Source: a virus. Taken from it: DNA of 58,484 bases. Numbering within the stretch: position 1 is the stretch's first letter; each line of letters starts with the position of its first letter. A program made the position numbers and the translations under genes. Shown here in pieces: positions 15,945-55,466 of this stretch. Under the pieces are notes generated by a model, which was not told the origin of the DNA, searched no databases, and saw only the letters and a list, made by a program, of their open reading frames with translations. Location: IMG/VR virus record IMGVR_UViG_3300020185_003230, positions 1 to 58,484 of that record. The stretch is one strand, 5' to 3'.

Positions 15945-16909
15945 ATCTCTGGCTCCGTAACTGGTCCGTAAATATCAAAGTAATAGTTTTCCGGAGTCTG
16001 TTCGTTATAGCAATCAAAATCTAAGTCGATATAATATGATTGTTTGTTGAATATCTCTGCACCTTTGCATGCAACTTTGTGATCTGCAGATTGATCTTTT
16101 CGTATCTCAAAGTAGTATTCTACATCATCTGTTGTAAAATCTGTATCTAAATTATTGTAATTGTCCAGATACTCTTGTGTGATGAAGCCGCCGTCGATTC
16201 TTTTATTATTTTTAGCAAACCTTTTTCTCTCTAGCTTTTGTTTGCCAGAACTGTTATCAATCTCAAAGACTTCGATATCAAAATTCTCATTCAGTAAGAT
16301 TGTGTTTAACTCTTCTGCGTAAATCATTAGATCGTCCGGTTCTATCTTTATATATTTATCATCTATAAAAATATTACCTTCGCTCTGGTCTGAGGATAAC
16401 TGCGAACTGTTCTTTATCTTCTTTCTGTACGTCATCGTCATATTGACTTGCGGGACCATTATATCGTTTGTTGTGTCTTTCTGTTGAGAAGAGGATATCT
16501 CTCCGTCTAATGTTACTATTTTCCAAGCTGGGGCAGACTGGGTGTCAGCCTCAAGTCTAGCATCGCCAATCATCGAATCGTATCTGAAGGTGTCTTTTCT
16601 CGGGTTGACTGCTGTTGCATCCATATCTACAGCGAAAGCTTCTCCGGTTGTCGAGGTATATGGAATGTTTTGGTCTTCCACGTCTTCAAACAAAACTAGA
16701 CTCTCAATATAAGACGTATTGCTCTTTATTCTCTCGTGAATCTCGTTCTGTTTCTCTGTCAATCCGACGTAACTTGCATCGTAAATTACATTATCGTCGT
16801 AAAATGCATACATTTCCGGCTTGAATCTACCTTGAGACAGCAAATAATTTCCATAAGAAGTAAGTTTAAAATCAATAACTTGTTCTTTTTTATTTAGAAA
16901 TTTAGCCAT
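15935..16909 (-). CDS. Virion protein with divergent 'LTxxG...GDDxVxY'-type N-terminus
   Basis: Encodes 324 residues. The first 45 (DFKLTSYGNYLLSQGRF, then MYAFYDDNVIYDAS) follow the same pattern as the paralogues at 6510-7514 and 7579-8571, but with FYDDN in place of LGDDE. The remainder is different, charged and rich in Asp, Glu, Lys and Tyr. It starts one base inside the stop of the 3212-residue gene (TGATGG). This looks like the third copy of an N-terminal module attached to different bodies, possibly a common docking surface in the tail. Confidence 0.6.
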   Translation of the reverse strand: MAKFLNKKEQVIDFKLTSYGNYLLSQGRFKPEMYAFYDDNVIYDASYVGLTEKQNEIHERIKSNTSYIESLVLFEDVEDQNIPYTSTTGEAFAVDMDATAVNPRKDTFRYDSMIGDARLEADTQSAPAWKIVTLDGEISSSQQKDTTNDIMVPQVNMTMTYRKKIKNSSQLSSDQSEGNIFIDDKYIKIEPDDLMIYAEELNTILLNENFDIEVFEIDNSSGKQKLERKRFAKNNKRIDGGFITQEYLDNYNNLDTDFTTDDVEYYFEIRKDQSADHKVACKGAEIFNKQSYYIDLDFDCYNEQTPENYYFDIYGPVTEPEICL

Positions 16910-19900
16910 CAGTTATTCTCTCCAGAGGGTAGCAGTGTTCTACTGACAGTACTTGGGATATTATTTTGGGAGGGCTGAGCTTTGATCTTGGGTGTGCCCC
17001 TGGCTGTTGAATACATATTTGTTTCGTTCCCGTCATCTATTTTGGCATTTTTCTTCTTCATTTTTCTATTGCCTATCTCTTCTTTTGGTTGAGAATACTT
17101 GATGTCAACGTTGATTTTTGCCATTTCAACAAAAGAAACATAATCATATGGCCAGTTGTACTTCATTTGGTATTGTGGTGCTTCTTCTAATCCAATTTTT
17201 GTATTTGGGCGAAGGTTTTCTTGAGCCTGCGTATCAACATAGTCCCAATAGTCATCTTGCCCCTTCTGCTTAACCTTAAATATCATCCATCTCAAGTTTT
17301 GGTTTTCTTCCAGCACTGTTTCATTCAATAGTTCCGCATCCATGAGTTCGTGAGCAATTGACTGATTTTCGATCTTCATCTTCTTATAGTCTCTCGGTGC
17401 TATGTTTTGCCAGATGTAGGATAGATCCGACTTATCCAGATCGTACTCAAACTCGAATATATACATTACAAACGGATCGACTGCGTTTTCAGGATTATTT
17501 ATAAAGTCAAGTTGTGGGGGGAATACATATCTATCCATTTTTTGCAATTGCTTGCTTAAGCTGGATCCTGCTGTTTCAAAACTGTCTCCGGTGGCAGTCC
17601 CGTAAGATTGTTTTTGAGCAGCCTTGTAGCGTTCCTGGGGGATAGAGATAAAGAATTTACTAGTTTGACCCAGCTCTTTCTGTGGTTCACTCTCATTATC
17701 TGGCTGCGATCTCTGTGTGATGTATGGGATAGCTACGACCGCTTCTCTAAGCTTGGCATTCTCCTTAAGTTCACCTAGGCGCTTCTTATTTTCTGTATTG
17801 AATCCAACGAGATCTGCCAAGGACTTGACGTTCCTGTATAATGTTGAATCAGCAGTACCATTGTTGTAGGAGCTTGCGTTCTCGATCACATCATAATGGT
17901 TTTGCAGCCAGTTCTTTGGTACGTCTTCGATACTAATAAAGATTCCCTTCGATGCATCCTCCGGCGGAATTCCATACTGATGCCACATACCGTGAGGTAC
18001 TGATTCTCCACCAAAGTTTGCGGGAAGCGATAAATTGATGCCGGGAGCGGAAGGAATCGTACTTCCACTAATGGGGTTCAACCCTGAATCAGAAAAGTTC
18101 ATCATCGGAGTCTCAAACTTAGGGCGGATAACCCATCGTTTGCCGACAGTTGTACCAGGGCGACTTTCTTGGACAAGTCCTTGCCTATCCTTCACTGTGA
18201 ATTCTGTTGTCTCTATTCCGAATAAGTTTAGACTGGCGTCTATTTGCATCGAACTTGAGTTAATCAGTTTTCCATCGTATGGGGCAGTCGGAAGACCTCC
18301 GGTAAGTGCATTATTCGAGTAAATTAAACTACGGTAACCGAAGCCGGTTCCTGCAGTGGATCCTGTCATACTGCCAGTAATGGGTCGACCTGCATCGAAT
18401 CTCCAAAGAACTTTTTTACACTCAGCCATTATTTTTTCTAAGTTATAATCTACTGAAGAAGTCGGTCGGAACACTAAGTCACACCATGCCTCGCCATTTG
18501 TGTAAGCCGGTGTATATGCTGGGTTAAATCCACTAATACTGTCAAAAGTGCCGGCAAAATGATATGGCTGCGGGAAACTTCCGACTGTCAGTACTGGGCT
18601 TGGTCGACCTGCGAGATCTGGACCGAACGCGCTTGGTCTACTAAACATCGTAAACGTCTCTTTAAAGCTAACAGAGCTACCAGAACCTATCGAGTATCTT
18701 GGATCCTGTGGGACTGGGAAGTATCTCGTGCTACTGTAATCTGAGCCAATGTAAGCTTTTGCTCCAAACTTAGTAAACACATTCTCTTCTGAGGAGCTGG
18801 CTATACTTGCAACATTGTTCAGAAGACCATCCACTTCATTTGTGTAGACTCTCGGACCAGTCGTCGAGCGCTCCATCTTAACTCGCATCATATAGACTTC
18901 GTTTTCTCCAAACCTAAACGTTTCAGAAATGGGCTCGGACTTAATGCTAGCAAACTCCTGATCCTTGAGGAAGAAAGAGGGGACAGCGCCGAAGAAGTTT
19001 CTTGATATACTATTGTACGATTCGTCTGATTCTCCCGGCACCCACGAACAAGTTACATACGGCATAGATGCCGATGGATGCGCTTCCATATCGTAAAAGC
19101 TCAAGCCTTGCAGATGTTTTTTTGGCTCGATTAGCGTCTCAAATGGTAACCTCTTATCAAAAAAACTAGTTGACTCCGTGCTCGTGTCTGTCAGCATAGA
19201 TACTGAATATAACTCTTCGTATAGATCAGGTCCAGACTTTGAAACCTTAAACTGTGTGCGACTAATCTTGGAAGGCTTCATTACAATCGGATAATCAACT
19301 GCCATTCCTGATTTGATCGTATTGAACATCAGTCCTGGCGAGAACATCTTTGTCATAAATGGTCTTGCTAGTCCGGAAGCTCCAGACATGTTGGGATGCA
19401 ACAATGTCCCGCTAATCACGCCAGGGGGCATCTCAGTTATTCCAGACCCAGATGGTCCACCGCCAATAACCAAAGAGGAAGTAGCCGCGCAAAGGCTGGA
19501 TATTACGTTATTATAGTGAGAATCTTTAAACTGACTAACAAGATCTAGTGTACGCTGTGCTGGATAAAACCCCTTGTATGGATTAAAGCGAATAGCTCCA
19601 GTACAAGAGACCATTATCTCTGTTGCATTTAAGAGAGATTCGTTCTTAATTTTCAAAAAGTCTTGCAAGAATTCTGAGTTAGAATACGTTATATAGAATT
19701 TGTCATTTACCCTAGAGTTTTCAGAGGTGTGTGGCAGTTCTAATCCAAGATCTTGATAAGGGTTATATCCACCATCAGAGTTTTCATATTCTGTTAGGTT
19801 TTCGCTGATTCTGTATTCTGGTATTACTGCGAATCCTTTTGCAGCTAGCTTGAGTTCGTACTTAAAATCGTCGTAATCATTAAACCAGGGCTCTGATGGA

Positions 19901-22900
19901 GCTAAGATGAATAGTTGCGTCTTATTTGTTTGATCGTAGCCAACATAACCAGCTTTGGTCGGAGCATCCCAGTAAGCCTCGCCGCCTCCGATGTCAATGC
20001 TATAATTAGCATTGCCGGATATTGCTCTTTCTACATCCTGCACCGTCATCGATGAACTTTGGAAAGCGTAGGGTAGTGATGGTCCATATGGGGCGCGGGT
20101 GGATATCGGAGTAGGTATAATGTGTTTTCTGGCGTAAAGAGCACCTGCTGCCGCCTGTCGACCGATCAATAGCGAGTCCAAACAGTCATCAACTTCGTCA
20201 GTTCCAACAGAGGAGGATGCGTACAGGTCTGCAAAATATGCGCCGGTCAAGAATCCTAGGTATGGGTTCTGTAGTTCTCCAGCGTATTGCGAGTTGAATC
20301 TTAGTGTATCCCCAAATGTGCTAGCTGTGACTGTTCCATTTGTGAGAATAGGCTCTGTACGGCTTAGGAAGTTATTTGGAGCGTCTAGCGGCCAAGAACT
20401 CTGTGCTACGTAGATGCCTGCACTGTTTACTGCAGTTACAGAGCCGGCGGGGGTTCCAAATCTAGAGGTCTCAGTATCAGTCGTATTTCTATCAGTTCTG
20501 CTATCTCTCCAGTACAGGTTATCGTATCCAGTCTTGTTTGTGGATGAGGATAAGAATTCGTTCCTAATCGAGGGGAAAAGCTGCTGAGAATATATAACCC
20601 AGTTAAGCAAGTAGCCCGTTGATCTTCCTAAGTGCATTAACTGGATATCTGGAGTAGAGAAGGAACTGAAAGACGGAGCTAATCGATTATTCATGTCGAC
20701 TGAGTTATAATATATTTTCTCGTTCTCTGCAGTTGATCTTATCGTGTATATCGCACTTGCCCCAGACACTTGAAAGTTAATCGTGTTAGGTCGCCCACGG
20801 TTGGATATAGGGGGTAAGTCATAGATGGTTATGTTACTGTTTGAGCCACTCAAGCCAGCAATTGAAATTTTATTATTTATTCTCTCATCTCTAACGATCG
20901 GGTGACTGTCTTGTCGCAACTGTTTCCAAGACGGGAAACCATACTGGTTACCTCTTTTAAACATCAGTGCGTTGAAAGCAGGAACTGCTGCAAGCTTTGA
21001 ATGTCTCTCGTCAATGATTCCTTGGGTGTTTAGGTATTGAGTCTGACTGGCTGCGCTCGGAGGGTCCGCTACGACCGGAACTGTACTTGGGTACCCTAAG
21101 ACATTAGTGCTAGATGTTATTGGCTCGTGAACGTTCAAGTTTAAGTGAGTAACAGATGGGATCAAGCCAGTCCACGGTCCAACAGCTGAGACTTGACTTG
21201 GTGTTTGACCAAACTTTCTTTCATTAGAAATAGAAGTGTGGTAGCTGCCGTACTCACTTGAACTAAGGAAACTGTAAGGTGACGTATAATAATTCGTTAG
21301 TAGTCCAATCTCTGTGCCCTTGACCAAATAATTCTCTGGAGTAAATCCTAACCAGCCATTATCTGAAACCAAAGACTGAGTAATCCAAGCATACTGCTTA
21401 GAGGATCTAGGGATCTGATGTTGTACGCTAAAGTTATCATTTGAGGATCTTGTCGCATATGTCGGAACATTGCCGACATATCCAGATATTCTTACAAGAT
21501 CTAAGTTGTTTCTGTGGACTTTATGGAAACCAGGGAGTTCATTATATGATGCGCCGGGAGAATCGACAAAGAGAGAATCGCGACCAAACCTTGCAGTGTG
21601 GCGCGCAAGATGAGAATATAATCCGTAATCTTTTCCGTGAATGTCATAAACTTGAATATTTGTTGTATCGCCGGACGTTGCAGGGGTTGAGATTGTACCA
21701 GATGGTCCCTGTGATGGCTTAAGAACTGAAAGGTTCCTGTATGCTAACCCACCGTATACTGAAAACTCTGATGCCCTGATATCTTGATATCCGCGAGTTT
21801 GTACTTCTATTCCGCCTGGAGCACTAAATCTAGATATGATTACAGACTTATTTGCGGCACCAGTTAGATAACTTGTCGAATACTCCTCAGATAGAGGGAT
21901 GTGTCCGTTTGTTGTTCTGTGAACATCTAAGATTGTGCGTACAGATGTTGAACTTGTAGCTAAACCTTGGTTTGCTGTAGGAGGTAACACCGGTTGATTA
22001 TTGACAAAGTGTCTCGGGTTAGAGTATGCGCCTACTGTTTGGACATATTCGTATGTTTCTCTATAGTTACCTAATATCGTGGAGCCGGTTGTTAACCTTA
22101 TGTTCTTAAAGTTGACCGGGCGCTTTGCAACGTGATCACGATAGTATATGGCTTTCTGTGGGCGAGTGTCTGGGTATGGTCTTGCTGCTATGTAATCATC
22201 GTTATTGGGATAATCCGGACCAACCATTCCGATAGCTCCAGATGCGATGTCAGTACAGGTACCAAGCATAATTCGCCAAGCTTCTGGTCTGGTGAACCAA
22301 GTTTCTGTACCATCTGACAATCTAATGTGTCGAGATTGGTGACCACCAACTGCGTAATCGGTGAAAGGTCCCTGCATCGGAACCTCCATATCTGGTCCAT
22401 ATACATCATTGTGCAAGTTGACAATCTGTATCTGGGCTCCTGTTAGTCTCTCGTATACTTCTTTTTGATATCCGGTATTGACTAGGTTTGAGGAACTAAT
22501 GATATTGAAAGGGAAAGCCATGGAGGACTTGAGGTTAGAATACCCCAAACCTTCTTCATATTCTTTGCCGCTCAGAACCTTAAGGTATCTCTTATCAACA
22601 ATGTTTTCTGGTCTTGGATCGTTCGACTTAAAATCCTGAACCAAATCAGACATAAAGGAGAGCAAAACATTTTGTGGGACAATCTTGCCGCTTTCTGTAT
22701 TTATCTTTCCTGCGGGATGCAGAGAGTTCAAAGTAAAGTGGATATTTTTCTTATCTGTAAAGTTTATACCACCCTTGATAATCTTAGTTTGCTTAGTATC
22801 GTAGATGTAGCTCCGAACAAGACGGCGGCGCTTGTAGGAGTTTGGATCAGCATAGGGTGTTCCAGCATCAGATAGCTGCTCAATAGTACTGCTTAAGAAT

Positions 22901-25900
22901 GGTACTGTGTTAATAACTTTTCTGAATGTTTCACGTTGTGCATCGATGATTGCGTCACCGGAACTGATTTCGGCTGCGGATCTCTCTGCGCGGTTCTTCC
23001 AATACACCTCGTTAACGTTTGTATCTCTTGGAGACTGCGGAGGGGGTGAGAAGCCTACTGCGTATGGGTAACTTGCCTCTGAGCGTCCGTATACAGCGCC
23101 GGCAGGCTCTGGTGTTCTTGATTCTAGCGTCGGGAACTTGGTTTGATATTTGTTTCTCTCCAATACGTGACTTTCAATAACATTGTTCACATCTTCGATG
23201 CCATCGATGGATGCCGGCATCAGCTGCTTAATGATTGTACTTAGAGCATCGTCAAACCATTTGTAGTATCCAATAAACTTCTCAACGTCTGTAACAGTTG
23301 TTACTCTTTTGAAGAATGCTTCTCGTAGCTTTTCGATCTCTTTATATCTGTCTCGATAGCGGTTGACCGGCGCTCCCACCAACTGGTTGAAGTCAATAGC
23401 GCCGGCAAAGAAGTTGATCATCTCAGAAGAGATCGCATCATACATATTCTTTTCTATAGAGTATGTGTAACTTGGCAAGATCTTTTCTACTCCGAATACC
23501 TCATCATCCTCGGTTAAGATACTAATCATATCAGAGGCGACAGATTGCTCTGGATCTATAAACCTAAAAGAGTTAATACGACGCTGTTCGACCACCGAAG
23601 TCGATGATGTGGCAAACGAGTATCCATACCCAGAATGTTGGAATCCAGCAATTGTGCCTAGCCAACCATAGTTGCTTCTCATTTCCGAAGAACCAGAGCT
23701 ATAATCTTGAACAGTAAATGTGCCGGCGTTAGTCGACGAGGTTACATTGTTGAATGTCCAGTTAAGGGCTAAAGTCTGCTTGTTTGTTAGGTCTCCAGTA
23801 GCACCAACAACATCAATTGGGGAAATATTCATATAGGAATCTTGAATTCCAGAGTTTTCTTTCCCGAAAGAGTGTAAATCGAGCGAAGCGGTATTGATGA
23901 ATCTCGTCCAATATCGAGCGTTCAATACTTCGATATCGGTCTTGTGGATGACTGCACCTGTTAAGTTGGTGCGAGAAGCACCAACATATAGCCTCTTTGG
24001 CGCTCTAAGTAGCCCAGAACCCGATGCATTTACGATTGTGCTAGATAGTTCGAATGTATTTTTTACAACGCCCAGTTCAGTGTTTACGCCTCTGAATATA
24101 ACATCATAAGTATTTGATAATGAACTTGATACCATTCCAGCAATCGGAAAGTCTTTTGGTTTAATTCTGACTGATAGGTTCCACCTAGAATCGTCATATA
24201 CATTAAAGAATGTACTACTGGTAAGCTCAGGTAATGGATACGGAGAATACGAAGACGTTAATTTGAAATATACATTCTTGGATCCCAGCTTGTCCCTCAA
24301 AGCTAACACTTGGAAGTTAGCGAGATCGGAAGCAAGGAAAGTGGTATCTGTACCATCTTTTGTTGCTGTTGAACCTGTATCGACTGTGTGTATTCCGAAT
24401 ATAGAACTTGTTATAAAGTCTCTATCGAATGTCGTTTTGTTCTTAAGATACTTTGGAAAGATAATGTCGACTTCCGCAGTTGCTCCGTTGTGCTCCTCCG
24501 GACCATATGCACCATCTCCCTGCGATCCAGAAATAAATCCAGAAGAGTCTGAGTTTAAAGTGTTCTTTCTCTGGTATACGATGGCACTGTTGTTATCCGC
24601 AGTGTCAAAGTTAATAGCAGTTTTCTCTACAACAGTTTGCTTAAGATTATCTTTGATTGTGTATCGTGAGTTGTTGTTATATACCTTTATGCTTATCAAC
24701 TCGTCGTCTAAGTTAAAGCACCTCATCACATTTCTAATGGCTTTCTCGGTGCCTTTCGATTTGTAAATGTTTGTTAGGTTATTATAAAGATTGAGGTATA
24801 TTAAGTTCTTTGTATCATTTAGCTTTGATTCAAAATGTTCTGTCTTTGTTCTGTCGGATAGGTTCTCTAGTATTGTTGCGTCAACAAATAAGTCTGGTAC
24901 ATATAATCCTAGTGACGTTGGCAAGTGTGATGCAAATGGAATAGGAGCATGAGAAGCAGTCGTGTAGTTTACTTGCTTAAATGTCGGAATCTGTGCCGCA
25001 AGCAAGTACATTTTATCCATGTACGCTCCGACCATGTGAGAGATAATTTTTAAGTTTTTATTCTCGGTCTCATCGTGTAAATCTAACACCCAAGATGGAG
25101 CATAGTTGAGGAATGATGAGTTATTATTAACGTCGTGATTTGAACCAGAGGTTATTAGATTAGAGTTTAATGTAATGTAATCCGGGTGTGCGGCTCGCAC
25201 CACTGGCTCTTTATATTCTTTTGTAGCAGCGCCGGCAAGGACTATAGCGGATCCTGTATTTCTTGAGGATTCTCCATACCCAACCCAAACACCATTGGAT
25301 ATTCTGCCAGAGTAATCTAGCACCGTGCTATCAATTGTGCTGTCTGTAGTTATACCTTCATTGAATTTGTAATAAACCCCCAAAGTCGTATTTGAGATAT
25401 CAGTGTTCGAACCTCCGCCAACATTATCAAAGTAATTTACTGATATCTGTTCTGAGTTGCGGCTGGCTTTCCAAAATCTAAAATCATCAATAGAGCCAGA
25501 TAGTTTTCCGTCTCCTCTGATCGCAGTACTGCCAGAAGGGGGTCCAACAAGCGCGCCAATTGTTGCTAGCATACTACCGGATGTAATGTCTCCGAGTGTG
25601 TTGGAAGCATATGTGTTTGTGTCGTTTAGATTTCCATCTACATATAACTTTGCAACAAGATTGCTTCCTGTATTGTAAAATCTAAATGCATAGTGATGCC
25701 AAGCGGACAAGGATCCTGTTGTTAGTGAATCTCCGATGCTGCTGTTAGAAACAGAAGCAGAGACTGTTCCAGATTGCGCTGTGATTATAAATGGACTGCC
25801 GGAAGCCGCCCCTGTTAGTGCGAGAGTTAGCCTACCGTATCCAGCAGAACCAGAAGATCCGCTGTTCCATAGGTCAAAGACTACTTCTTTCTCGCTTAGC

Positions 25901-26547
25901 GAATTATTGAACGCATCTTTTTTAAGCCAAAACTCAACTGTGACTCCGGTGTCAAAATTGGTTCTCAGGTTTGATTCTCTGGTACCTTGTCCGTAATCTG
26001 AAGGAAGACCCGCAGTTGTGTATAACGAGGTATCGTATATGTTGGCGTTTTGGTACTTGTTGTTATATGGATTGTTGACTATTGAAGATAGAGATCCAGA
26101 CGTTCCGTGAGGTCCACCTTTGAATATGATATACTCTTTCGTGTTAGGTTGACCATAACCATCTGCAGTTACTGTGCCGGTTCCCCAGCCAGTAGCGCTT
26201 AAGATACCATAGCCGTTAAATCGAGGATATTTCTTATCAAAGATATATCTCTCAACTGGCATCAAGCCATTATAGAATTTATTCTTTTCTGCATCAGACC
26301 CGTCATATGGGTAGTAATCGATGATATGCGTCATCGCACCGCTGTAGTAAAGTTCTGCTGATCCAAATTTGGCAAACTTGTGCGGTTGAGAATAATCTAC
26401 TTGTGGGACAAAGGTATTCTTCTCTATGGAGATTTCACTTGCATTTCTGGATGACTCAACTGAATCGAAAGTCGTCTTATCATCAGCGTAATCAGAATAG
26501 TCGCGAGAGTCTGTTCGGTGTTGTGAAAATAGTTTTTTAATGCTCAT
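16909..26547 (-). CDS. Giant virion protein (3212 residues) with LamG-like domain
   Basis: The largest gene in the window. Residues about 197-375 form a laminin-G/concanavalin-like sandwich: GVTVEFWLKK, LSAWHHYAFRFYNTGS, KLYVDGNLND and GSIDDFRFWKASRNSEQI are the characteristic strands. Such domains often bind carbohydrate. The remaining 2800 residues are Ser/Tyr/Asn/Gly-rich beta-type sequence with no named domain, apart from a helical patch near 1080-1170. The extreme C-terminus is basic and disordered. It sits directly after gp6 and the DNRLRE-like gene, where T4 has the large wedge protein gp7. A giant baseplate-wedge, fibre or adhesin protein is the most economical reading. It is one uninterrupted frame of 9.6 kb. 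Confidence 0.7.
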   Translation of the reverse strand: MSIKKLFSQHRTDSRDYSDYADDKTTFDSVESSRNASEISIEKNTFVPQVDYSQPHKFAKFGSAELYYSGAMTHIIDYYPYDGSDAEKNKFYNGLMPVERYIFDKKYPRFNGYGILSATGWGTGTVTADGYGQPNTKEYIIFKGGPHGTSGSLSSIVNNPYNNKYQNANIYDTSLYTTAGLPSDYGQGTRESNLRTNFDTGVTVEFWLKKDAFNNSLSEKEVVFDLWNSGSSGSAGYGRLTLALTGAASGSPFIITAQSGTVSASVSNSSIGDSLTTGSLSAWHHYAFRFYNTGSNLVAKLYVDGNLNDTNTYASNTLGDITSGSMLATIGALVGPPSGSTAIRGDGKLSGSIDDFRFWKASRNSEQISVNYFDNVGGGSNTDISNTTLGVYYKFNEGITTDSTIDSTVLDYSGRISNGVWVGYGESSRNTGSAIVLAGAATKEYKEPVVRAAHPDYITLNSNLITSGSNHDVNNNSSFLNYAPSWVLDLHDETENKNLKIISHMVGAYMDKMYLLAAQIPTFKQVNYTTASHAPIPFASHLPTSLGLYVPDLFVDATILENLSDRTKTEHFESKLNDTKNLIYLNLYNNLTNIYKSKGTEKAIRNVMRCFNLDDELISIKVYNNNSRYTIKDNLKQTVVEKTAINFDTADNNSAIVYQRKNTLNSDSSGFISGSQGDGAYGPEEHNGATAEVDIIFPKYLKNKTTFDRDFITSSIFGIHTVDTGSTATKDGTDTTFLASDLANFQVLALRDKLGSKNVYFKLTSSYSPYPLPELTSSTFFNVYDDSRWNLSVRIKPKDFPIAGMVSSSLSNTYDVIFRGVNTELGVVKNTFELSSTIVNASGSGLLRAPKRLYVGASRTNLTGAVIHKTDIEVLNARYWTRFINTASLDLHSFGKENSGIQDSYMNISPIDVVGATGDLTNKQTLALNWTFNNVTSSTNAGTFTVQDYSSGSSEMRSNYGWLGTIAGFQHSGYGYSFATSSTSVVEQRRINSFRFIDPEQSVASDMISILTEDDEVFGVEKILPSYTYSIEKNMYDAISSEMINFFAGAIDFNQLVGAPVNRYRDRYKEIEKLREAFFKRVTTVTDVEKFIGYYKWFDDALSTIIKQLMPASIDGIEDVNNVIESHVLERNKYQTKFPTLESRTPEPAGAVYGRSEASYPYAVGFSPPPQSPRDTNVNEVYWKNRAERSAAEISSGDAIIDAQRETFRKVINTVPFLSSTIEQLSDAGTPYADPNSYKRRRLVRSYIYDTKQTKIIKGGINFTDKKNIHFTLNSLHPAGKINTESGKIVPQNVLLSFMSDLVQDFKSNDPRPENIVDKRYLKVLSGKEYEEGLGYSNLKSSMAFPFNIISSSNLVNTGYQKEVYERLTGAQIQIVNLHNDVYGPDMEVPMQGPFTDYAVGGHQSRHIRLSDGTETWFTRPEAWRIMLGTCTDIASGAIGMVGPDYPNNDDYIAARPYPDTRPQKAIYYRDHVAKRPVNFKNIRLTTGSTILGNYRETYEYVQTVGAYSNPRHFVNNQPVLPPTANQGLATSSTSVRTILDVHRTTNGHIPLSEEYSTSYLTGAANKSVIISRFSAPGGIEVQTRGYQDIRASEFSVYGGLAYRNLSVLKPSQGPSGTISTPATSGDTTNIQVYDIHGKDYGLYSHLARHTARFGRDSLFVDSPGASYNELPGFHKVHRNNLDLVRISGYVGNVPTYATRSSNDNFSVQHQIPRSSKQYAWITQSLVSDNGWLGFTPENYLVKGTEIGLLTNYYTSPYSFLSSSEYGSYHTSISNERKFGQTPSQVSAVGPWTGLIPSVTHLNLNVHEPITSSTNVLGYPSTVPVVADPPSAASQTQYLNTQGIIDERHSKLAAVPAFNALMFKRGNQYGFPSWKQLRQDSHPIVRDERINNKISIAGLSGSNSNITIYDLPPISNRGRPNTINFQVSGASAIYTIRSTAENEKIYYNSVDMNNRLAPSFSSFSTPDIQLMHLGRSTGYLLNWVIYSQQLFPSIRNEFLSSSTNKTGYDNLYWRDSRTDRNTTDTETSRFGTPAGSVTAVNSAGIYVAQSSWPLDAPNNFLSRTEPILTNGTVTASTFGDTLRFNSQYAGELQNPYLGFLTGAYFADLYASSSVGTDEVDDCLDSLLIGRQAAAGALYARKHIIPTPISTRAPYGPSLPYAFQSSSMTVQDVERAISGNANYSIDIGGGEAYWDAPTKAGYVGYDQTNKTQLFILAPSEPWFNDYDDFKYELKLAAKGFAVIPEYRISENLTEYENSDGGYNPYQDLGLELPHTSENSRVNDKFYITYSNSEFLQDFLKIKNESLLNATEIMVSCTGAIRFNPYKGFYPAQRTLDLVSQFKDSHYNNVISSLCAATSSLVIGGGPSGSGITEMPPGVISGTLLHPNMSGASGLARPFMTKMFSPGLMFNTIKSGMAVDYPIVMKPSKISRTQFKVSKSGPDLYEELYSVSMLTDTSTESTSFFDKRLPFETLIEPKKHLQGLSFYDMEAHPSASMPYVTCSWVPGESDESYNSISRNFFGAVPSFFLKDQEFASIKSEPISETFRFGENEVYMMRVKMERSTTGPRVYTNEVDGLLNNVASIASSSEENVFTKFGAKAYIGSDYSSTRYFPVPQDPRYSIGSGSSVSFKETFTMFSRPSAFGPDLAGRPSPVLTVGSFPQPYHFAGTFDSISGFNPAYTPAYTNGEAWCDLVFRPTSSVDYNLEKIMAECKKVLWRFDAGRPITGSMTGSTAGTGFGYRSLIYSNNALTGGLPTAPYDGKLINSSSMQIDASLNLFGIETTEFTVKDRQGLVQESRPGTTVGKRWVIRPKFETPMMNFSDSGLNPISGSTIPSAPGINLSLPANFGGESVPHGMWHQYGIPPEDASKGIFISIEDVPKNWLQNHYDVIENASSYNNGTADSTLYRNVKSLADLVGFNTENKKRLGELKENAKLREAVVAIPYITQRSQPDNESEPQKELGQTSKFFISIPQERYKAAQKQSYGTATGDSFETAGSSLSKQLQKMDRYVFPPQLDFINNPENAVDPFVMYIFEFEYDLDKSDLSYIWQNIAPRDYKKMKIENQSIAHELMDAELLNETVLEENQNLRWMIFKVKQKGQDDYWDYVDTQAQENLRPNTKIGLEEAPQYQMKYNWPYDYVSFVEMAKINVDIKYSQPKEEIGNRKMKKKNAKIDDGNETNMYSTARGTPKIKAQPSQNNIPSTVSRTLLPSGENN

Positions 26548-43907: not shown

Positions 43908-44891
43908 CTATTCCCTTTTTACGCCTCTCAGATCCTCTTCGAACATCATAGCGGCTAATTCTTTAAATGAAACTTTTGGCTGCCAGTTGAGAATTCTTTT
44001 TGCTTTCGATGGGTCTCCCCAGAGCTTAGGAACTTCGCATGGTCGATAAAACTTTGAATCTATTATAACATGGTCTTCTACATTAAGTTCAGCATAATCG
44101 AACACATAATTTAAAAAATCTTGTACTGAGTTAGTTTCGCCTGTCGCCACAACATAATCATCAGGCTCTGAATGGTGTAGCATCTTGTGCATCACCTCAA
44201 CATAGTCTCCAGCAAAGCCCCAGTCTCTCTGGGCTTCGAGATTTCCAAGCCTGAGTTCGTCTTGAAGACCCATTTTTATTCTTGCTGCAGCCTTTGTAAT
44301 CTTCCTCGTAACAAAGTTTTCCCCACGTCGTGGCGACTCGTGGTTAAACAGGATCCCAGAGCATGCAAAAATGTTATATGACTTTCGATATGTCCCCACC
44401 ATATGGTGTGCTGCAAGTTTGGCGCAAGCATAAGGAGATACCGGAGAAAAGTGAGTATTTTCGTTTTGTGGGCACTTGACATTATCTCCAAACATCTCAC
44501 TAGTTGAAGCTTGGTAGAATTTAATCTTTGGATCAAGCAAGCGTATTGTCTCTAGAAGATTTAAACAACCATTTAGATTAATCTCTGATGTCGACACTGG
44601 AGATTTAAAAGAAGTGCCCACGTGGGATTGTGCAGCGAGGTTGTATATTTCTTGTGGTCGATATTCGTCGACGATACGCTGCAATGACGGAAGATCTGTG
44701 ACATCTCCTTGTTCGATTATTAGCCTTTCATTATTTAAGAGATGACCGATGTTTTTCATTTTATGTTTTGAGTCGCATACAGTTCTGCGCTCAAGTCCGA
44801 TGACGGTATAATCACGGTCTAGTAGCAACTCTGCTAAATAGGAACCATCTTGTCCAGAGATACCAGTCACAAATGCTTTCTTTTCCATCAT
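43908..44891 (-). CDS. gmd: GDP-mannose 4,6-dehydratase
   Basis: Encodes 327 residues of an extended short-chain dehydrogenase. VTGISGQDGSYLAELLL binds NADP. The catalytic residues are in QASTSEMFG (about 128-135) and in SPYACAKLAAHH (Tyr154, Lys158). HESPRRGENFVTRKI and DWGFAGDYV are GMD-specific. It converts GDP-mannose to GDP-4-keto-6-deoxymannose, the precursor of GDP-fucose, GDP-rhamnose, GDP-perosamine and others. The partner enzyme for the second step is not in the window and may be host-encoded. I set the start at 44891, where ATGATGG overlaps the stop of the upstream glycosyltransferase. The longer frame would overlap that gene by 67 bases. Confidence 0.92.
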   Translation of the reverse strand: MMEKKAFVTGISGQDGSYLAELLLDRDYTVIGLERRTVCDSKHKMKNIGHLLNNERLIIEQGDVTDLPSLQRIVDEYRPQEIYNLAAQSHVGTSFKSPVSTSEINLNGCLNLLETIRLLDPKIKFYQASTSEMFGDNVKCPQNENTHFSPVSPYACAKLAAHHMVGTYRKSYNIFACSGILFNHESPRRGENFVTRKITKAAARIKMGLQDELRLGNLEAQRDWGFAGDYVEVMHKMLHHSEPDDYVVATGETNSVQDFLNYVFDYAELNVEDHVIIDSKFYRPCEVPKLWGDPSKAKRILNWQPKVSFKELAAMMFEEDLRGVKRE

Positions 44892-46294
44892 GATATTCCT
44901 ATAGCTTCTTTCATTATGTTTGTTGTATTTTCGATCGAAAGATAGCTGCTGCAATATTCGTAGCTTTCCTTACCGAGTTTCGAAAAGTTATCTGGAGAGT
45001 CTTTATATAAGTTATAGCAGCTTCTCATTTGTTCTCTAGTTGATCTAATGCTGCATTCAACATAATTTTGTTCAAATGAATATAACCCAGGAGAGTTTGG
45101 CATCCCAAAGCAGGGTTCATATGAACTTTCAATATAAAATGAATTAGGGTGACAAAAGTCTAAATGTCCGCCTTTGTCTGGAACTATTACTGGCTTTTCG
45201 AAGTGTAGAAATTCAGCAATCGGCAATCCAAACCCCTCTCCGCGTGTAGTAGTAACATATGCATCAGAGTTTTGATAAATCGAGTTAATCTGCTCTTTGC
45301 TCATTATACTAGAAAGTATAACTATTTTACACCTATAGTTAGGAATGACTTTACCATTATGTTGTATTGTCGACTTAATACCGTCAATTATCTGTGCGAA
45401 ATACTTATTCTGCGCTTCAGTCGTTTCTTCTATTGAGGCATAAGTTTTTAGAAATAAAGTAACGTCTTCTTTATAAAACTCCATCAAATATGATTTGATA
45501 AGTATGTCAAACCCTTTACGATGACTCCATTGTGCAACTGAGCACATAGCAAAATTTTCTTTTTTGATCTCTCTAAGTTTTTGCCCTAACTCTACATTGT
45601 AATCTGTTTTTGGAGATATGGTGTACGGTACAGTTACCCCTGAGACCTCGATACTTGAGTCATCTAAAGTATTCTTGTTCCATTCACAGGCGCACAAAAC
45701 ATTTTCTATGTTTGGTGTATGTTTATATCCCTTGATGCATAGATCTGGTACCTTATCTGTTTCCCATACAAAGCAAGGATATACCCTAGATGCCTGGAGG
45801 GTTATCCCGTATATATTAATCAATAGGCGATCGCCTAACTTAAAAAGTACTTTATTTTCTCTATTCTGTCGATCACTTATAGGCAGTAAATCCTCTACAG
45901 GGAAAGAACCATCTTCTGAATCCCACGGTGAGGCTAGCCAAGCGTTTATGAGAAAATAAACTAACTCATACCCCTCTTCAATAAATTTAAGACTGTCTTC
46001 GCTAAGCTCGACATTGTTGGAAGCTATGGACTCATCAATATCCATATTAGTAATATAGAGCCTACTCAATAGATTCTTAGCGGATAACTTTTGAAATATT
46101 TCTGGATCTATATCTGTTCCAATTTGATTCCCATCTACATCTTCCCTTGTGACTGATTCACATGAAAAATTAACAATCTTTAGATTTATTAATCCCTGTT
46201 CCTCAAGCTTCAGAAGAGATTTAAAATAAGAGCGGGCGGCAGATCCATATCCAGAAATATCAGTCAACTGTCCGATTAGTAGGACGTTTTTCAT
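44888..46294 (-). CDS. GT4-family glycosyltransferase
   Basis: Encodes 468 residues with a two-Rossmann GT-B layout. An N-terminal ISGYGSAARSYFKSLL is followed in the C-domain by VAQWSHRKGFDILIKSYL, VTLFLKTYAS, and the donor-binding segment DAYVTTTRGEGFGLPIAEFL with the family E-x7-E pair, then KPVIVPDKGGHLDF. Such retaining transferases move a hexose from a nucleotide sugar to an acceptor. It overlaps the next gene by four bases at each end. Donor is possibly the GDP-6-deoxyhexose made by the adjacent dehydratase; acceptor unknown. Confidence 0.85.
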   Translation of the reverse strand: MKNVLLIGQLTDISGYGSAARSYFKSLLKLEEQGLINLKIVNFSCESVTREDVDGNQIGTDIDPEIFQKLSAKNLLSRLYITNMDIDESIASNNVELSEDSLKFIEEGYELVYFLINAWLASPWDSEDGSFPVEDLLPISDRQNRENKVLFKLGDRLLINIYGITLQASRVYPCFVWETDKVPDLCIKGYKHTPNIENVLCACEWNKNTLDDSSIEVSGVTVPYTISPKTDYNVELGQKLREIKKENFAMCSVAQWSHRKGFDILIKSYLMEFYKEDVTLFLKTYASIEETTEAQNKYFAQIIDGIKSTIQHNGKVIPNYRCKIVILSSIMSKEQINSIYQNSDAYVTTTRGEGFGLPIAEFLHFEKPVIVPDKGGHLDFCHPNSFYIESSYEPCFGMPNSPGLYSFEQNYVECSIRSTREQMRSCYNLYKDSPDNFSKLGKESYEYCSSYLSIENTTNIMKEAIGIS

Positions 46295-47520
46295 AGTATA
46301 GCTAATCCATCGCTAATGTCTTGTTGCATGGGGTTGCAAGCTTCTTCTACTTGACGCACAAAATTTGCATACATCTTTTCTTCACTGAATCGTTCTTTTA
46401 ACTCTTCTTTGTATACAAGGGCATCATCGCTTGTCTCTCTTTGATCATAACATAATCTCATCTTCTCTTTTGCAGAAGACTCTCTCGGGTATGCCCACAT
46501 AGACTGTTCTACAAGAACACCGGACCATACAACCTCTTTCTGCACGTGTTGTAGGTCGTAGGAGACATTATAAAACCGATCCTTGCCACTCTCATCAACC
46601 AAAAAATCTAACTGCCCTGACCACCCTGTAGCCACGACTGGAAGACCGCTGTATGCAGCTTCAAACATTGGAAGACCGAAGCCCTCACCGTGGGCTAGGT
46701 TGATAAGACCAAAGATTTGCGGGTGACTGTAGAGTGCATGCACTTCTTCATCTGACATGTCGCCGTGAATCAAGTGAATCTTACACTTCTTTTCTCCAAG
46801 CTTCCCTACGAACTCTGCAAGTTGTGACGCAAGATTCTGCCTATCTATCAAACAGTTCTTTGCAATGTTTCCCTTAATCACCAATCCAACTTCTTCGTTT
46901 CTGAACTCTTCAATAAACCATTTAATTGTGTTCATTAGATTCTTTCTTGGGGAAAACTGAGCTACACACAAGAAGTTATTATCATAAGGCAGCTTAATAC
47001 CCAGGTCAGGCAAATCATCGCCATAATCTTTAACTGGATAGTTTGCGTGTTCTACCGGAATAGTTAAAGTAAGTTTTACCGGCGTTCCGGCAGGATCAGT
47101 TGCTTCCCAAGAAGTATCCTTAAATACATTTGCTGAGTGACTGGATACGACAATCAGAGAATTAATCTGGTTGCTGATCTGCAACCACTCGTGGGCAACC
47201 TTTGTAGTCTCTATACCGGCTGTATATCCGATATTGACTGCTGCTAGATTTTGAAACTCGTTTGGTATAGTAGATTGTACGGAAACGTCAAAGCGACCTT
47301 TAGATTGAATATAAGCAATCGTCTCTTCAATTTTCTTATCCATCCAGGCGCGTTCTTCATCGTTCTCAATCATCCATCCATTTTGTCCCCAAGTAGTGGG
47401 TTGGATATAGATGTCATATAAGTCCTCGCGACTTCGCAAGGACCTCAAGGCAAACCTAGTCTGCTCTCCATAGCCGGAACGTGTAAGGACTGGTCCTTTT
47501 AATAATACTGACTTCTTCAT
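46291..47520 (-). CDS. GT4-family glycosyltransferase
   Basis: Encodes 409 residues. Start set at 47520 (MKKSVLLKGPVLTRSGYGEQ), two bases after the stop of the upstream gene; the longer frame would overlap that gene needlessly. The GT-B features are LCVAQFSPRKNLMNTIKWFI, EVGLVIKGNIAK and INLAHGEGFGLPMFEAAYSG. A SGxG loop at the N-terminus resembles the other two transferases in the cluster, so the three probably arose by duplication. Likely adds a sugar to the same glycan. No signal or membrane segment is seen, so it acts in the cytoplasm. Confidence 0.85.
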   Translation of the reverse strand: MKKSVLLKGPVLTRSGYGEQTRFALRSLRSREDLYDIYIQPTTWGQNGWMIENDEERAWMDKKIEETIAYIQSKGRFDVSVQSTIPNEFQNLAAVNIGYTAGIETTKVAHEWLQISNQINSLIVVSSHSANVFKDTSWEATDPAGTPVKLTLTIPVEHANYPVKDYGDDLPDLGIKLPYDNNFLCVAQFSPRKNLMNTIKWFIEEFRNEEVGLVIKGNIAKNCLIDRQNLASQLAEFVGKLGEKKCKIHLIHGDMSDEEVHALYSHPQIFGLINLAHGEGFGLPMFEAAYSGLPVVATGWSGQLDFLVDESGKDRFYNVSYDLQHVQKEVVWSGVLVEQSMWAYPRESSAKEKMRLCYDQRETSDDALVYKEELKERFSEEKMYANFVRQVEEACNPMQQDISDGLAIL

Positions 47521-47521
47521 T

Positions 47522-48805
47522 TTATGCCACCTCCAGCAAATGCCATCGTTTATAACCGACCCTAGTCTCCCAAGAGCCATGCTTTTCAATAACCTCATCC
47601 ATTGTCTCTACCCATCGACTCTCATACTCTTCAAAATTATAGTTGTCTTTAACGTGCTGCATACCTGCTTTCGACATTGTATTATACTTTGCCTTGGGTA
47701 GCTTGATTGCTTTTTCTAGAGTTTTCGTAAAATCAGCTTGATTAATTCTGTCTTCATAAATATAAGGCACCTGAAGCGAACCAATAACTGACTTCGAAGA
47801 TGGTTGAATTCCCCACCCAAACCAGTTCTTTCCATCAGTTACTTGCTCTTGGAGTCCACCAGTCATATTAACAATGATTGGAGTACCGCATGATAGCGAC
47901 TCTAGTGTTCCTAGACCGAAACCTTCAGCATCAGAAATATTAATTGTAAAATCAGCTGCGTTATACATAAGAGCTAAGTCTTCCGCCGACACCTTCTCTG
48001 TTGATAGCAGAACCTGCCCATCATTTATACCTAAGTGCTTAATAATTGCCGGCAAATCTTGACCGTGTGGATCACGAGCATCAGTGTGCATCAATAGCGA
48101 TGCTTTGTCGTGACCAACTTTATCTAGAAACTCCTTGAACCACCAAATAAGTGTTCCAGATTGCTTACGTCGAGCGTTCCTGTTATTCCAAAAGAAGACT
48201 TTCTTTTTCGGGTTCTGGTACTTATCGCTTGATGAAGTAATCTTTGTTCTGAGTGCTTCAATCTTCTGCTTACTCTCAGCATCAGTATACTTCTTGAAGT
48301 GCTCTTGGTGTACTGCATGCGGCAAATATCGACTAGATGTCTCTGGTGCAACCTTCTTTAAAATTTCGTGCGTTACTTTGGAAATGCATACAACTTCGTC
48401 TGTTGAGTTATAGAACCTAGCATTGAACTCTGGGGCAGGGTAGTTGTCCCAAACATGATAGTATACCAGCGGTGCGTGCGGGCGAACTTCGTTTTCCATC
48501 TCCCAGAGCCACTCGTAAAAACGAGGGTCAGTCATAAACCACACTGCATCAGGTCGCTCTTTTTGCATGACTGAACGAATAAGCTCTGGCGTTCCATAAC
48601 CGTCAATAGGATATATGATCCAGTCAGTTCCATATGGATCAACCTTCACTGGGTTGTAAGCTTGGTGCTTGACTGCTCCACCCATGCAAATAAACTTATA
48701 GCGCCCTGTTTTAAGGAGCGCCTCAATCATATACTTTGTTTGAGTGCCAACACCAGATGGCGAAAGCGGGTGGTCAGACAGGACCAAAATCTTCTTTTTA
48801 CTCAT
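47522..48805 (-). CDS. GT4-family glycosyltransferase
   Basis: Encodes 427 residues. The N-domain begins KKKILVLSDHPLSPSGVGTQ, a typical GT4 opening. The C-domain has KVFFWNNRNARRKQSGTLIW, ASLLMHTDARDPHG, and the signature FTINISDAEGFGLGTLESLS followed by CGTPIIVNMTGG. GAGGAATAA before the ATG is a clear ribosome site, and the gene is the first of the sugar transcription unit after the RecB-like nuclease gene. GC content is like the phage backbone, unlike the cytidylyltransferase region. Confidence 0.87.
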   Translation of the reverse strand: MSKKKILVLSDHPLSPSGVGTQTKYMIEALLKTGRYKFICMGGAVKHQAYNPVKVDPYGTDWIIYPIDGYGTPELIRSVMQKERPDAVWFMTDPRFYEWLWEMENEVRPHAPLVYYHVWDNYPAPEFNARFYNSTDEVVCISKVTHEILKKVAPETSSRYLPHAVHQEHFKKYTDAESKQKIEALRTKITSSSDKYQNPKKKVFFWNNRNARRKQSGTLIWWFKEFLDKVGHDKASLLMHTDARDPHGQDLPAIIKHLGINDGQVLLSTEKVSAEDLALMYNAADFTINISDAEGFGLGTLESLSCGTPIIVNMTGGLQEQVTDGKNWFGWGIQPSSKSVIGSLQVPYIYEDRINQADFTKTLEKAIKLPKAKYNTMSKAGMQHVKDNYNFEEYESRWVETMDEVIEKHGSWETRVGYKRWHLLEVA

Positions 48806-49614: not shown

Positions 49615-49643
49615 AATATAACACTTCCATACTCAGTTGTCAA
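49615..49643 (-). promoter_or_regulatory. sigma70 promoter of the RecB-like nuclease and sugar genes
   Basis: Minus strand TTGACA (49638-49643), 17 bases, TATATT (49615-49620). Transcription would begin near 49608 and read the nuclease gene, then possibly the glycosyltransferases. The -35 box touches the end of the metallopeptidase gene. Confidence 0.75.
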
Positions 49644-50329
49644 TCATTATCTGCGTGCAAGCTGTGTATTTTTTTATACAACTGGGGGCAGGTGCTTTTC
49701 ATATAGTTATGTGAGTCTGATCTTAATAGAAAATCAGTAAACCCAGTAGCAAAATATTCCCTTAAGGATGTTGGGGCATACGCACTAATAAATATCCCGT
49801 TACAATATTGAATAAGTTTGTCGTAACCTACTGTTTGCAACAGAAACATATCAAAATCTTGATCGTATTCCACTTCAGTGAACTTTTTCTTTGGTACCCG
49901 GTAGCCAGCTGACCATAGTATATCGTGAAGAATGAGTCTTTTGTCTAGGAACTCGTTTTTCACTTTATTGTCTCCGTATATGAAATATCCCTGAACCTCC
50001 TCAACCGAGTGAGCTACTTCATGTACGATGTCATCGACAATATCTAATTCATTATCTTGTTCGTTGGAAATGCAAACCATACCATCGGCATAGAAAGCAT
50101 TGATTCCTCTTTCATCAAATTCTTCGAAATGTCCAACCATGATCATTTCAATCTCAGACATCAGGTGTGAAGGGACCACACTCTCTACTTCTGCAATTGC
50201 TTTATCAAAATCAATATCTGGATTTTCTATCTTATCTTTAAAATATATGTGCAGTCCGCGAGTGGTATAAAAGTCACTCACCTTCTGTTGCTGTCTTTTC
50301 TGGATTTCTTGTAAATCCTTTATAAGCAT
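49640..50329 (-). CDS. Putative cytosolic zinc metallopeptidase (HExxH)
   Basis: Encodes 229 residues. DDIVHEVAHSVEE contains HExxH (His103, Glu104, His107). A second conserved-looking block, APTSLREYFATGFTDFLL, offers Glu191 as third zinc ligand, the gluzincin arrangement seen in lethal-factor-like peptidases. No signal peptide. The start at 50329 overlaps the upstream gene by 56 bases. An in-frame GTG at 50281 would shorten the overlap to eight bases but has a weak ribosome site. Proteins of this kind occur in phages close to PhoH; possible roles are processing of a virion protein or attack on a host factor. Neither is shown by the sequence. Confidence 0.6.
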   Translation of the reverse strand: MLIKDLQEIQKRQQQKVSDFYTTRGLHIYFKDKIENPDIDFDKAIAEVESVVPSHLMSEIEMIMVGHFEEFDERGINAFYADGMVCISNEQDNELDIVDDIVHEVAHSVEEVQGYFIYGDNKVKNEFLDKRLILHDILWSAGYRVPKKKFTEVEYDQDFDMFLLQTVGYDKLIQYCNGIFISAYAPTSLREYFATGFTDFLLRSDSHNYMKSTCPQLYKKIHSLHADND

Positions 50330-53815: not shown

Positions 53816-54310
53816 TTATCTATCTGATTCTGTAGAAGTCGTTCTATTTGGGGGTACTTGAAAATCTCTAACTTTTCTGGCTAAATCAGATGAGCTATCT
53901 AGCTTTTCTTCTCCACCAATAGCCCACAGTAATTCCACACCTATCTCTTCGCAAACAGACTGTTCTGGCGTATTTGCTTTTCCTCGATCTCCACCATTAG
54001 CAAAATAAGTTGGCTTTAATCTTCTAATCGCTTCGCATACAGTGTTATCACTGTCATCTACTGAGTCGACCAAAATAACTCCTTTGATTGCGTTAAGGAT
54101 TTCGATACGGCGCTCGAACTCCATAAATACAAAGCCCTTCTTTCTAAATAACCAATCATCGGAATTGGCTATTATAATCACGTTTCCGTATTCGGCTGCG
54201 TGCCTAATCATTCGAATATGTCCTGCGTGAACTGGATCAAACCCGCCAGAAACCATTATTGTTGGCTTTTCGTTCTCATTCTCATCAAACATATCACCGT
54301 GAACAGTCAT
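53816..54310 (-). CDS. Cytidylyltransferase-like protein (RfaE/glycerol-3-P cytidylyltransferase fold)
   Basis: Encodes 164 residues. IMVSGGFDPVHAGHIRMIRH (about 18-37) is the HxGH-type nucleotide-binding motif, and IIIANSDDWLFRKKG with FMEFERRIEIL follows as in HldE-C, TagD and FAD-synthetase-like enzymes. These link CTP or ATP to a phosphorylated sugar, glycerol or cofactor. Without the rest of a heptose pathway the substrate is open; it could activate a sugar for the nearby glycosyltransferases. AGAGAAGGCAA precedes the ATG, and an extended -10 box lies at 54337-54345. Confidence 0.8.
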   Translation of the reverse strand: MTVHGDMFDENENEKPTIMVSGGFDPVHAGHIRMIRHAAEYGNVIIIANSDDWLFRKKGFVFMEFERRIEILNAIKGVILVDSVDDSDNTVCEAIRRLKPTYFANGGDRGKANTPEQSVCEEIGVELLWAIGGEEKLDSSSDLARKVRDFQVPPNRTTSTESDR

Positions 54311-54369: not shown

Positions 54370-55383
54370 TTATGGTCCAGTATCGCCGGTATCAGCTCCA
54401 TAAGGATTTTCTGGATCGTAGTGATATGCCACGTCTACACTATCATTTGATTCTGGTATGTTTGTGAAATATACCGTATTATTAGACCGGTCGTAATACC
54501 AGTCCCAGTTGGGTACACCATTAACGAACACCCTCATAGAGGATTCGTGAGATGGAAAATAGGTTAATTCAATGAACTCATATGGTTCAAGACGTGAAGA
54601 AGCATCTTTAACTCCAGATGCCCAATCTATATCACATATATCGACTATGACTCCTCCAAAAAAGTTAGTTACCTCCATATACCGATAGCCAATGTTAGAC
54701 GCAACAGGAGACGGTGTACACACTGAGTCAGCTTTATTTACATTAATTATGCTAGCAATATACCCAGAGCCACCACGCTGGTTTCCATACCAAGACTTAA
54801 AATCATCAACGTTATAAAAATTTGTATTACTCTGTTCTTCCTCATCGGAGACAAATACAACAAGCAGCGCTGCATCTTGTCTCATCCAAGTAGAGGCATA
54901 TGGATTATTAGTTATGTATTCATATACTGCATCGAAGCCTTTCTCTTGCGCACCAAACTTCATTATGCTAAACATATTTATAGCATCACCGATATCGTCT
55001 CCGGGTACTAAAGGAAACTGAGCTTCGAGAGCAGAAGCATATGGATCGCTGCTCATCATAGCTAAACGCCAGCCAGATTCTGGCAGAGCGTTCATCATAG
55101 CTTCAATTCCTGCTAATAATTCTGGATCATATTCATCCATTGAGCACGATCTATCGATAACCCACAATATATCAACACCATCAACACTTGACGGTTGAGT
55201 AAACGAGTCGACCCAGATCTCTCCATATTCGGTGCTCCTGGGTACATCTGTTAATATATAACCTGGAACTTCAAATCTATTATTTTCACGCTCACCGTGA
55301 ACAACATAGTCAATGCTGCTGCTGCAACCACCAAGCACTGTTATAAATAGCATTATAGCTAATTTTAATAAGTTATGTACCAT
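54370..55383 (-). CDS. Secreted lipoprotein with von Willebrand factor A domain
   Basis: Encodes 337 residues. An N-terminal signal (LLKLAIMLFITVLGGC) ends in a lipobox with Cys20, so the mature protein would be lipid-anchored in the envelope. A VWA domain follows. DILWVIDRSCSMDEYD carries the metal-dependent adhesion site DxSxS (Asp77, Ser79, Ser81), and VVFVSDEEEQS has a late Asp180. The last 80 residues are beta-type, and the C-terminus reads YGADTGDTGP. VWA proteins of this style (VIDxSCSM after a lipobox) are familiar from predatory and deltaproteobacterial genomes. In a phage, possible uses are superinfection exclusion or alteration of the host surface. Its start follows a short upstream frame (55389-55466). 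Confidence 0.8.
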   Translation of the reverse strand: MVHNLLKLAIMLFITVLGGCSSSIDYVVHGERENNRFEVPGYILTDVPRSTEYGEIWVDSFTQPSSVDGVDILWVIDRSCSMDEYDPELLAGIEAMMNALPESGWRLAMMSSDPYASALEAQFPLVPGDDIGDAINMFSIMKFGAQEKGFDAVYEYITNNPYASTWMRQDAALLVVFVSDEEEQSNTNFYNVDDFKSWYGNQRGGSGYIASIINVNKADSVCTPSPVASNIGYRYMEVTNFFGGVIVDICDIDWASGVKDASSRLEPYEFIELTYFPSHESSMRVFVNGVPNWDWYYDRSNNTVYFTNIPESNDSVDVAYHYDPENPYGADTGDTGP

Positions 55384-55388
55384 CCCTA

Positions 55389-55466
55389 TTAATACGTAGA
55401 GATGGGATTCGTAAAAAGTTGGTGTTCTTCTACATTTCTTTGATAGCTAGCATCATCTGTAGCCAT
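55389..55466 (-). CDS. Possible 25-residue leader ORF before the lipoprotein
   Basis: Open frame MATDDASYQRNVEEHQLFTN plus 5 residues, ending five bases before the lipoprotein start. The lipoprotein has no separate well-spaced ribosome site (AGGG touches its ATG), so translation by reinitiation from this frame is possible. No strong ribosome site for the small frame itself. Weak evidence. Confidence 0.25.
   Translation of the reverse strand: MATDDASYQRNVEEHQLFTNPISTY

Follow-up and report, generated by a model that had tools for sequence, protein, structure and literature searches.

A phage-encoded MIDAS lipoprotein related to the surface adhesins of predatory bacteria

What use would a phage have for a surface lipoprotein of the kind found in predatory bacteria? 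The question is raised by a gene on the minus strand of a 58.5-kb virus record (the window: the whole stretch of DNA that was analysed), in whose product an earlier note had seen a VWA lipoprotein of deltaproteobacterial flavor, with a signal peptide, a lipobox Cys20, an intact MIDAS, and a DTGDTG-type tail. All of these elements are present and conserved in relatives (Table 1), and this conservation argues that they are not due to chance; its description as a VWA/MIDAS protein that is encoded by a phage and bears a lipoprotein signal is borne out by the lipobox rule, the fold model, and the match to the NCBIfam model NF052240, which describes a MIDAS adhesin of Bdellovibrio.

Table 1. Features of the MIDAS lipoprotein gene and its immediate neighbors.
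Feature	Position	Strand	Basis and remarks
MIDAS/VWA lipoprotein CDS (P0001)	54370..55383	-	ATG start, 337 aa; NF052240 (E=1.3e-7) and homologues
Signal peptide and lipobox, residues 1-20 (MVHNLLKLAIMLFITVLGGC)	55324..55383	-	PROSITE-style rule; Cys20
VWA domain, residues ~70-265	54589..55176	-	AlphaFold2 model, pLDDT 88; Foldseek: integrin beta, other VWA proteins
MIDAS loop 1, D77-R-S79-C-S81-M82 (DRSCSM)	55138..55155	-	invariant or nearly so in 70 phage and bacterial sequences
MIDAS loop 3, S179-D180-E181-E-E-Q-S185	54829..54849	-	aligned with A-D-E-D-E-R-S of Bd0875-type proteins
Small beta domain, C-terminal part, residues ~268-322	54418..54582	-	secondary structure of the model; Bd0875-type profile alignment spans both ends
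DTGDTG tail, residues 331-336	54376..54393	-	low confidence in the model
RfaE/HldE-like nucleotidyltransferase	53816..54310	-	PF01467 (E=1.9e-10), phrog_7878 (E=4.8e-18); listed as genomic context
25-codon ORF ending ...EEHQLFTNPISTY	55389..55466	-	directly 5' of the MIDAS gene; conserved C-terminal coding and ribosome-binding bases

Features and predicted fold

The window has 49 non-overlapping ORFs with a length of 60 aa or more, and of these only the MIDAS lipoprotein, which has a serine at +2, passes the lipobox rule. The lipid-attachment cysteine (scored as a Cys after [AGS], with at least nine uncharged residues) is kept in all 77 distinct full-length phage homologues, and the product would be a secreted, lipid-anchored MIDAS adhesin. 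An aspartate at +2, the enterobacterial inner-membrane signal for lipoproteins, is rare in the family (3 of 60 scored); the protein most likely reaches the outer membrane during infection, although the +2 rule may not apply in its host.

The metal-binding site appears complete: the DxSxS motif is intact and the acidic residues of loop 3 are in place. Across the 70 phage and bacterial sequences, D77, S79, M82, and R168 are invariant, and S81, E147, D180, and E181 are conserved to at least 90%; the site is predicted to bind a metal and, through it, a ligand. The chain ends in ADTGDTGP, which is probably flexible, as judged from the model. Of 76 distinct complete phage versions, 65 carry a D[TS]G tail; among the other ORFs from these loci, it is seen in 11 of 1143 (Fisher p ~4e-84, a value that ignores the relatedness of the sequences), and among cellular homologues in 4 of 85. 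It is thus a trait of the phage family and not the signature of a host, as which the earlier note had tentatively offered it.

The window protein has no Pfam match, no match among PDB sequences, and no significant PHROG match. The AlphaFold2 model, built from the 70 sequences (pTM 0.79), places the VWA domain as an insertion between two parts of a small β domain, which is formed from both chain ends and completed by an N-terminal strand (residues 55-62). The top PDB matches in Foldseek are integrin β headpieces (E=9e-9), followed by other VWA proteins, a pilus adhesin among them; in BFVD, the best matches are to VWA proteins encoded by giant viruses and, in a few cases, by phages. In the integrin β headpiece (e.g. 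6bxj), a MIDAS-bearing I-like domain is likewise inserted in a β domain, but at ~13% identity and TM-scores of ~0.4 the arrangement is held in common without close kinship, and the likeness does not amount to membership. The predicted layout would thus be that of an N-terminal lipid tether, a two-ended small β domain, and an inserted, metal-binding VWA head, resembling an integrin β headpiece.

Cellular relatives and origin

NF052240 matches 65 of the 70 members of the combined phage and bacterial alignment. The window protein scores 31.1 bits against it, below the 700-bit cut-off for equivalogs, meaning Bd0875 proper, which nine Bdellovibrionota genomes pass. A profile alignment with Bd0875-type proteins covers the VWA domain and the two parts of the small domain over the full length (98.7%, E=2.5e-16), by which the window protein belongs to the family of MIDAS lipoproteins that includes Bd0875. 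The latter is a surface lipoprotein by which Bdellovibrio invades its prey; it acts at the predator-prey interface and requires its MIDAS, and it is set apart by a cap tied to its special role (PMC11003981). The two proteins share the lipobox, the split small β domain, the inserted VWA domain with DxSxS and the loop-3 acids, and a conserved cysteine pair, but the window protein is phage-encoded, ~25% identical, and has its own C-terminal DTG tail; the cap region above the MIDAS is absent from it, appearing as a gap in the alignment. The same cap-less architecture is found in the MIDAS lipoproteins of Bd1483 type and in related VWA lipoproteins of Bdellovibrionota and Myxococcota. Tree and profile alike make these the nearest cellular relatives; the phage clade differs from them by a long stem and by its tail. 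The second-best model for family members is CglD (NF033765), a VWA lipoprotein of gliding motility in the predatory bacterium Myxococcus; the match is weak (E=0.023 for the window protein), and the model is far larger (1124 positions).

A scan of bacterial genomes returns mostly Bdellovibrionota and Myxococcota. When genomes were sampled by phylum, a match was present in 110 of 144 Bdellovibrionota and 98 of 141 Myxococcota, against 2 of 149 Fidelibacterota and none of 14 control genomes; the deltaproteobacterial flavor is thus real. Thirteen phage sequences form a single clade (100/100), sister to proteins of Bacteriovoracales type; this placement (93/91) is not decisive, and a grouping with the Myxococcota rows is not rejected (p 0.20-0.32). 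One further phage version, that of locus L014, pairs (100/100) with a bacterial sequence that falls among Myxococcota, which hints at a second acquisition, although a single phage origin is not rejected either (p=0.08); the bacterial partner, from a MAG labelled Klebsiella, looks like a case of mis-binning. Two MIDAS lipoproteins on a contig labelled Klebsiella pneumoniae (L170, CAMCWU010000042.1) likewise fall with Myxococcota, and the MAG is probably mis-labelled.

The gene was probably acquired by divergent T4-like phages from a bacterium of Bdellovibrionota or Myxococcota type, and the same two phyla are the favored candidates for the host. Three further approaches say little about the host: among 12 candidate host genomes, a C-terminal DTGDTG is found in one; phage contigs binned in MAGs yield two matches, in unrelated phyla; and the protease that accompanies the gene in many phages (see below) has only weak matches in both phyla, on the scale of DegP-like proteins.

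Genomic setting in the window and in related phages

The window is extended by 5.6 kb by an overlapping record (L002, 99.8% identity). The earlier note had placed the gene in a replication neighborhood, which is wrong: the primase lies ~52 kb away, and the baseplate genes ~24-27 kb. Downstream follow the RfaE-like nucleotidyltransferase, an HNH endonuclease, a class II aldolase, two tRNAs, and PhoH, and three glycosyltransferases and a sugar epimerase lie 6-11 kb from the gene (43908-48805, minus strand; possibly a glycan-modification cluster). The setting is one of sugar and accessory genes, and the phage plausibly alters surface glycans. Elsewhere on the minus strand, a 3212-aa ORF with a lectin-like Laminin_G_3 domain and no PHROG match (16909-26547) is a candidate giant tail fiber, and a HEVAH-containing protein (49640-50329) has a weak, below-cut-off match to the zinc metalloprotease model PF07737 (E=0.0072).

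The short ORF directly upstream resembles what is left of a small gene, of which relatives have an intact copy. A 16-nt element 5' of the start codon (CTACGTAYTAATAGGG) was considered as an RNA operator common to distant phages and rejected: alignment suggests that it is mostly the end of this small gene (...PTY-stop) together with ribosome-binding bases, and it has no Rfam match. The T4 late promoter TATAAATA is not found upstream of the MIDAS gene.

Relatives are encoded in 175 IMG/VR stretches by alignment search, of which 80 were kept, and a search of IMG/VR with a MIDAS DNA pattern returned 14; 50,697 annotated phage records gave no convincing match in tblastn with different family members as queries. 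A T4-like gp23 is present on 11 of 15 long contigs, its closest named relatives being those of Rhodothermus phage RM378 and Microcystis phage Mel-JY01 (33-46% identity); on this marker, the carriers are divergent T4-like phages.

In 54 of 80 distinct loci, a trypsin-like, secreted protease (PF13365, E=1.2e-13) is encoded within two genes of the MIDAS gene, on its 5' side or its 3' side depending on the lineage; the catalytic triad is invariant. In 6 further loci, the neighbor is a thioredoxin/AhpC-like protein, mostly with a lipobox. The protease occurs on 11 of the 15 long contigs, in five of them apart from the MIDAS gene; it is not found on several long contigs or in the window, fragments beyond which it may lie, and it is not found adjoining cellular MIDAS genes. 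A secreted protease in both orders and a thioredoxin-like lipoprotein as neighbors favor an envelope function, and genes that stay linked while their location changes suggest an accessory envelope cassette, of which the MIDAS gene would be part, usually with the protease and sometimes with the thioredoxin-like lipoprotein. A restriction of the homologues to tail genes, which the earlier note had named as counting against its view, is not seen: the gene lies within a tail module, between tail-tube or hub genes and a large ORF, in 7 of the 80 distinct loci, and 56-118 kb from gp23 in most other long contigs.

Three further features of these contigs deserve mention. A 1746-aa protein with an M23 peptidase domain at its C-terminus (L019:1025-6265, plus strand) belongs to a family that is encoded close to the MIDAS gene in 44 of 97 loci. 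In the contig of L005 (G009), an 899-aa ORF immediately 5' of the protease and MIDAS lipoprotein genes contains a second, more distant MIDAS VWA domain (158593-159444). Finally, several unrelated proteins (L002:1217-2524, plus strand, and genes in L007 and L019) have in common an N-terminal leader, MKLLLENWRxYL, which could target them to the capsid as in the internal head proteins of T4; the MIDAS protein lacks it.

Possible roles of the lipoprotein

The best reading overall, to which we assign a probability of about 0.45, is that the MIDAS lipoprotein forms part of the envelope cassette and binds a ligand at the surface of the infected cell: made during infection, it would grip an acidic ligand on a host-surface partner through its metal site, and the surface so gripped would be altered or blocked, keeping other phages out. 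The rarity of aspartate at +2, the conservation of the lipobox and MIDAS, the profile match to Bd0875-type proteins, the integrin-β-like arrangement, the adjacent protease and thioredoxin-like genes, and the sugar genes of the window count in its favor; the window without a protease gene, the seven tail-module loci, and the nature of known exclusion lipoproteins count against it. T5 Llp and T1 Cor are phage-encoded, secreted lipoproteins that exclude superinfection, Llp by blocking receptors (PMC9586334), and the window protein resembles them in its lipoprotein signal and possibly in its role; they are, however, small and periplasmic, target TonB-dependent receptors, and lack a VWA domain (PMC9586334). 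A member of this class would be expected to have a mature chain well below 100 aa, free of large domains, where the window protein has 337 aa and a VWA domain. In addition, llp adjoins the gene for a receptor-binding protein, an adjacency not seen here. By this analogy, superinfection exclusion by the MIDAS lipoprotein is plausible.

The protein might instead have kept the job of the ancestral adhesin, with infected cells of a predatory or gliding host remaining attached to, or invading, prey or particles; the phage would then supply its own adhesin while it matures, as an auxiliary behavior gene. This is possible if rather unlikely: the centering of the family on Bdellovibrionota and Myxococcota, its homology to the prey-invasion adhesin Bd0875, and the rank of CglD among the models speak for it, but the cap tied to Bd0875's special role is missing (PMC11003981), and donor and host phylum may differ. 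A partnership with the protease, in which the lipoprotein docks or regulates its neighbor and host envelope proteins are cleaved for receptor removal or progeny release, we consider improbable. Complement factor B, which joins a MIDAS VWA domain to a trypsin domain, offers an analogy, and the adjacency in both orders, the invariant triad, and the occurrence of the protease on most long contigs, even apart from the MIDAS gene, agree with it; its absence from the window and several long contigs does not, although fragments may lack the gene. That the protein is a virion component, such as a cell-binding decoration of tail or baseplate, would fit the tail-module loci and the short BFVD matches of its C-terminal β module to phage fiber and structural proteins, but is very improbable given a lipobox in every full-length homologue, most loci outside tail modules, and the distance from gp23.

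An unlikely, more far-reaching idea is that T4-like phages of predatory bacteria, equipped with a prey-type MIDAS adhesin and a secreted protease, reprogram the surface and the predatory behavior of the infected predator; the conserved DTG tail might be a built-in ligand whose aspartate is bound by the metal site of its own or of a neighboring molecule.

Whichever ligand the envelope lipoprotein may bind, it is probably a membrane-anchored, metal-dependent adhesin of the kind that predatory bacteria use on prey, of Bd0875/Bd1483 type. An adhesin of predator type is unusual among phage surface genes, and here a large group of uncultured phages carries one. With the protease and the thioredoxin-like lipoprotein it would make up a testable envelope cassette not seen in catalogued phage genomes, and it provides a handle on environmental phages that may infect Bdellovibrionota or Myxococcota.
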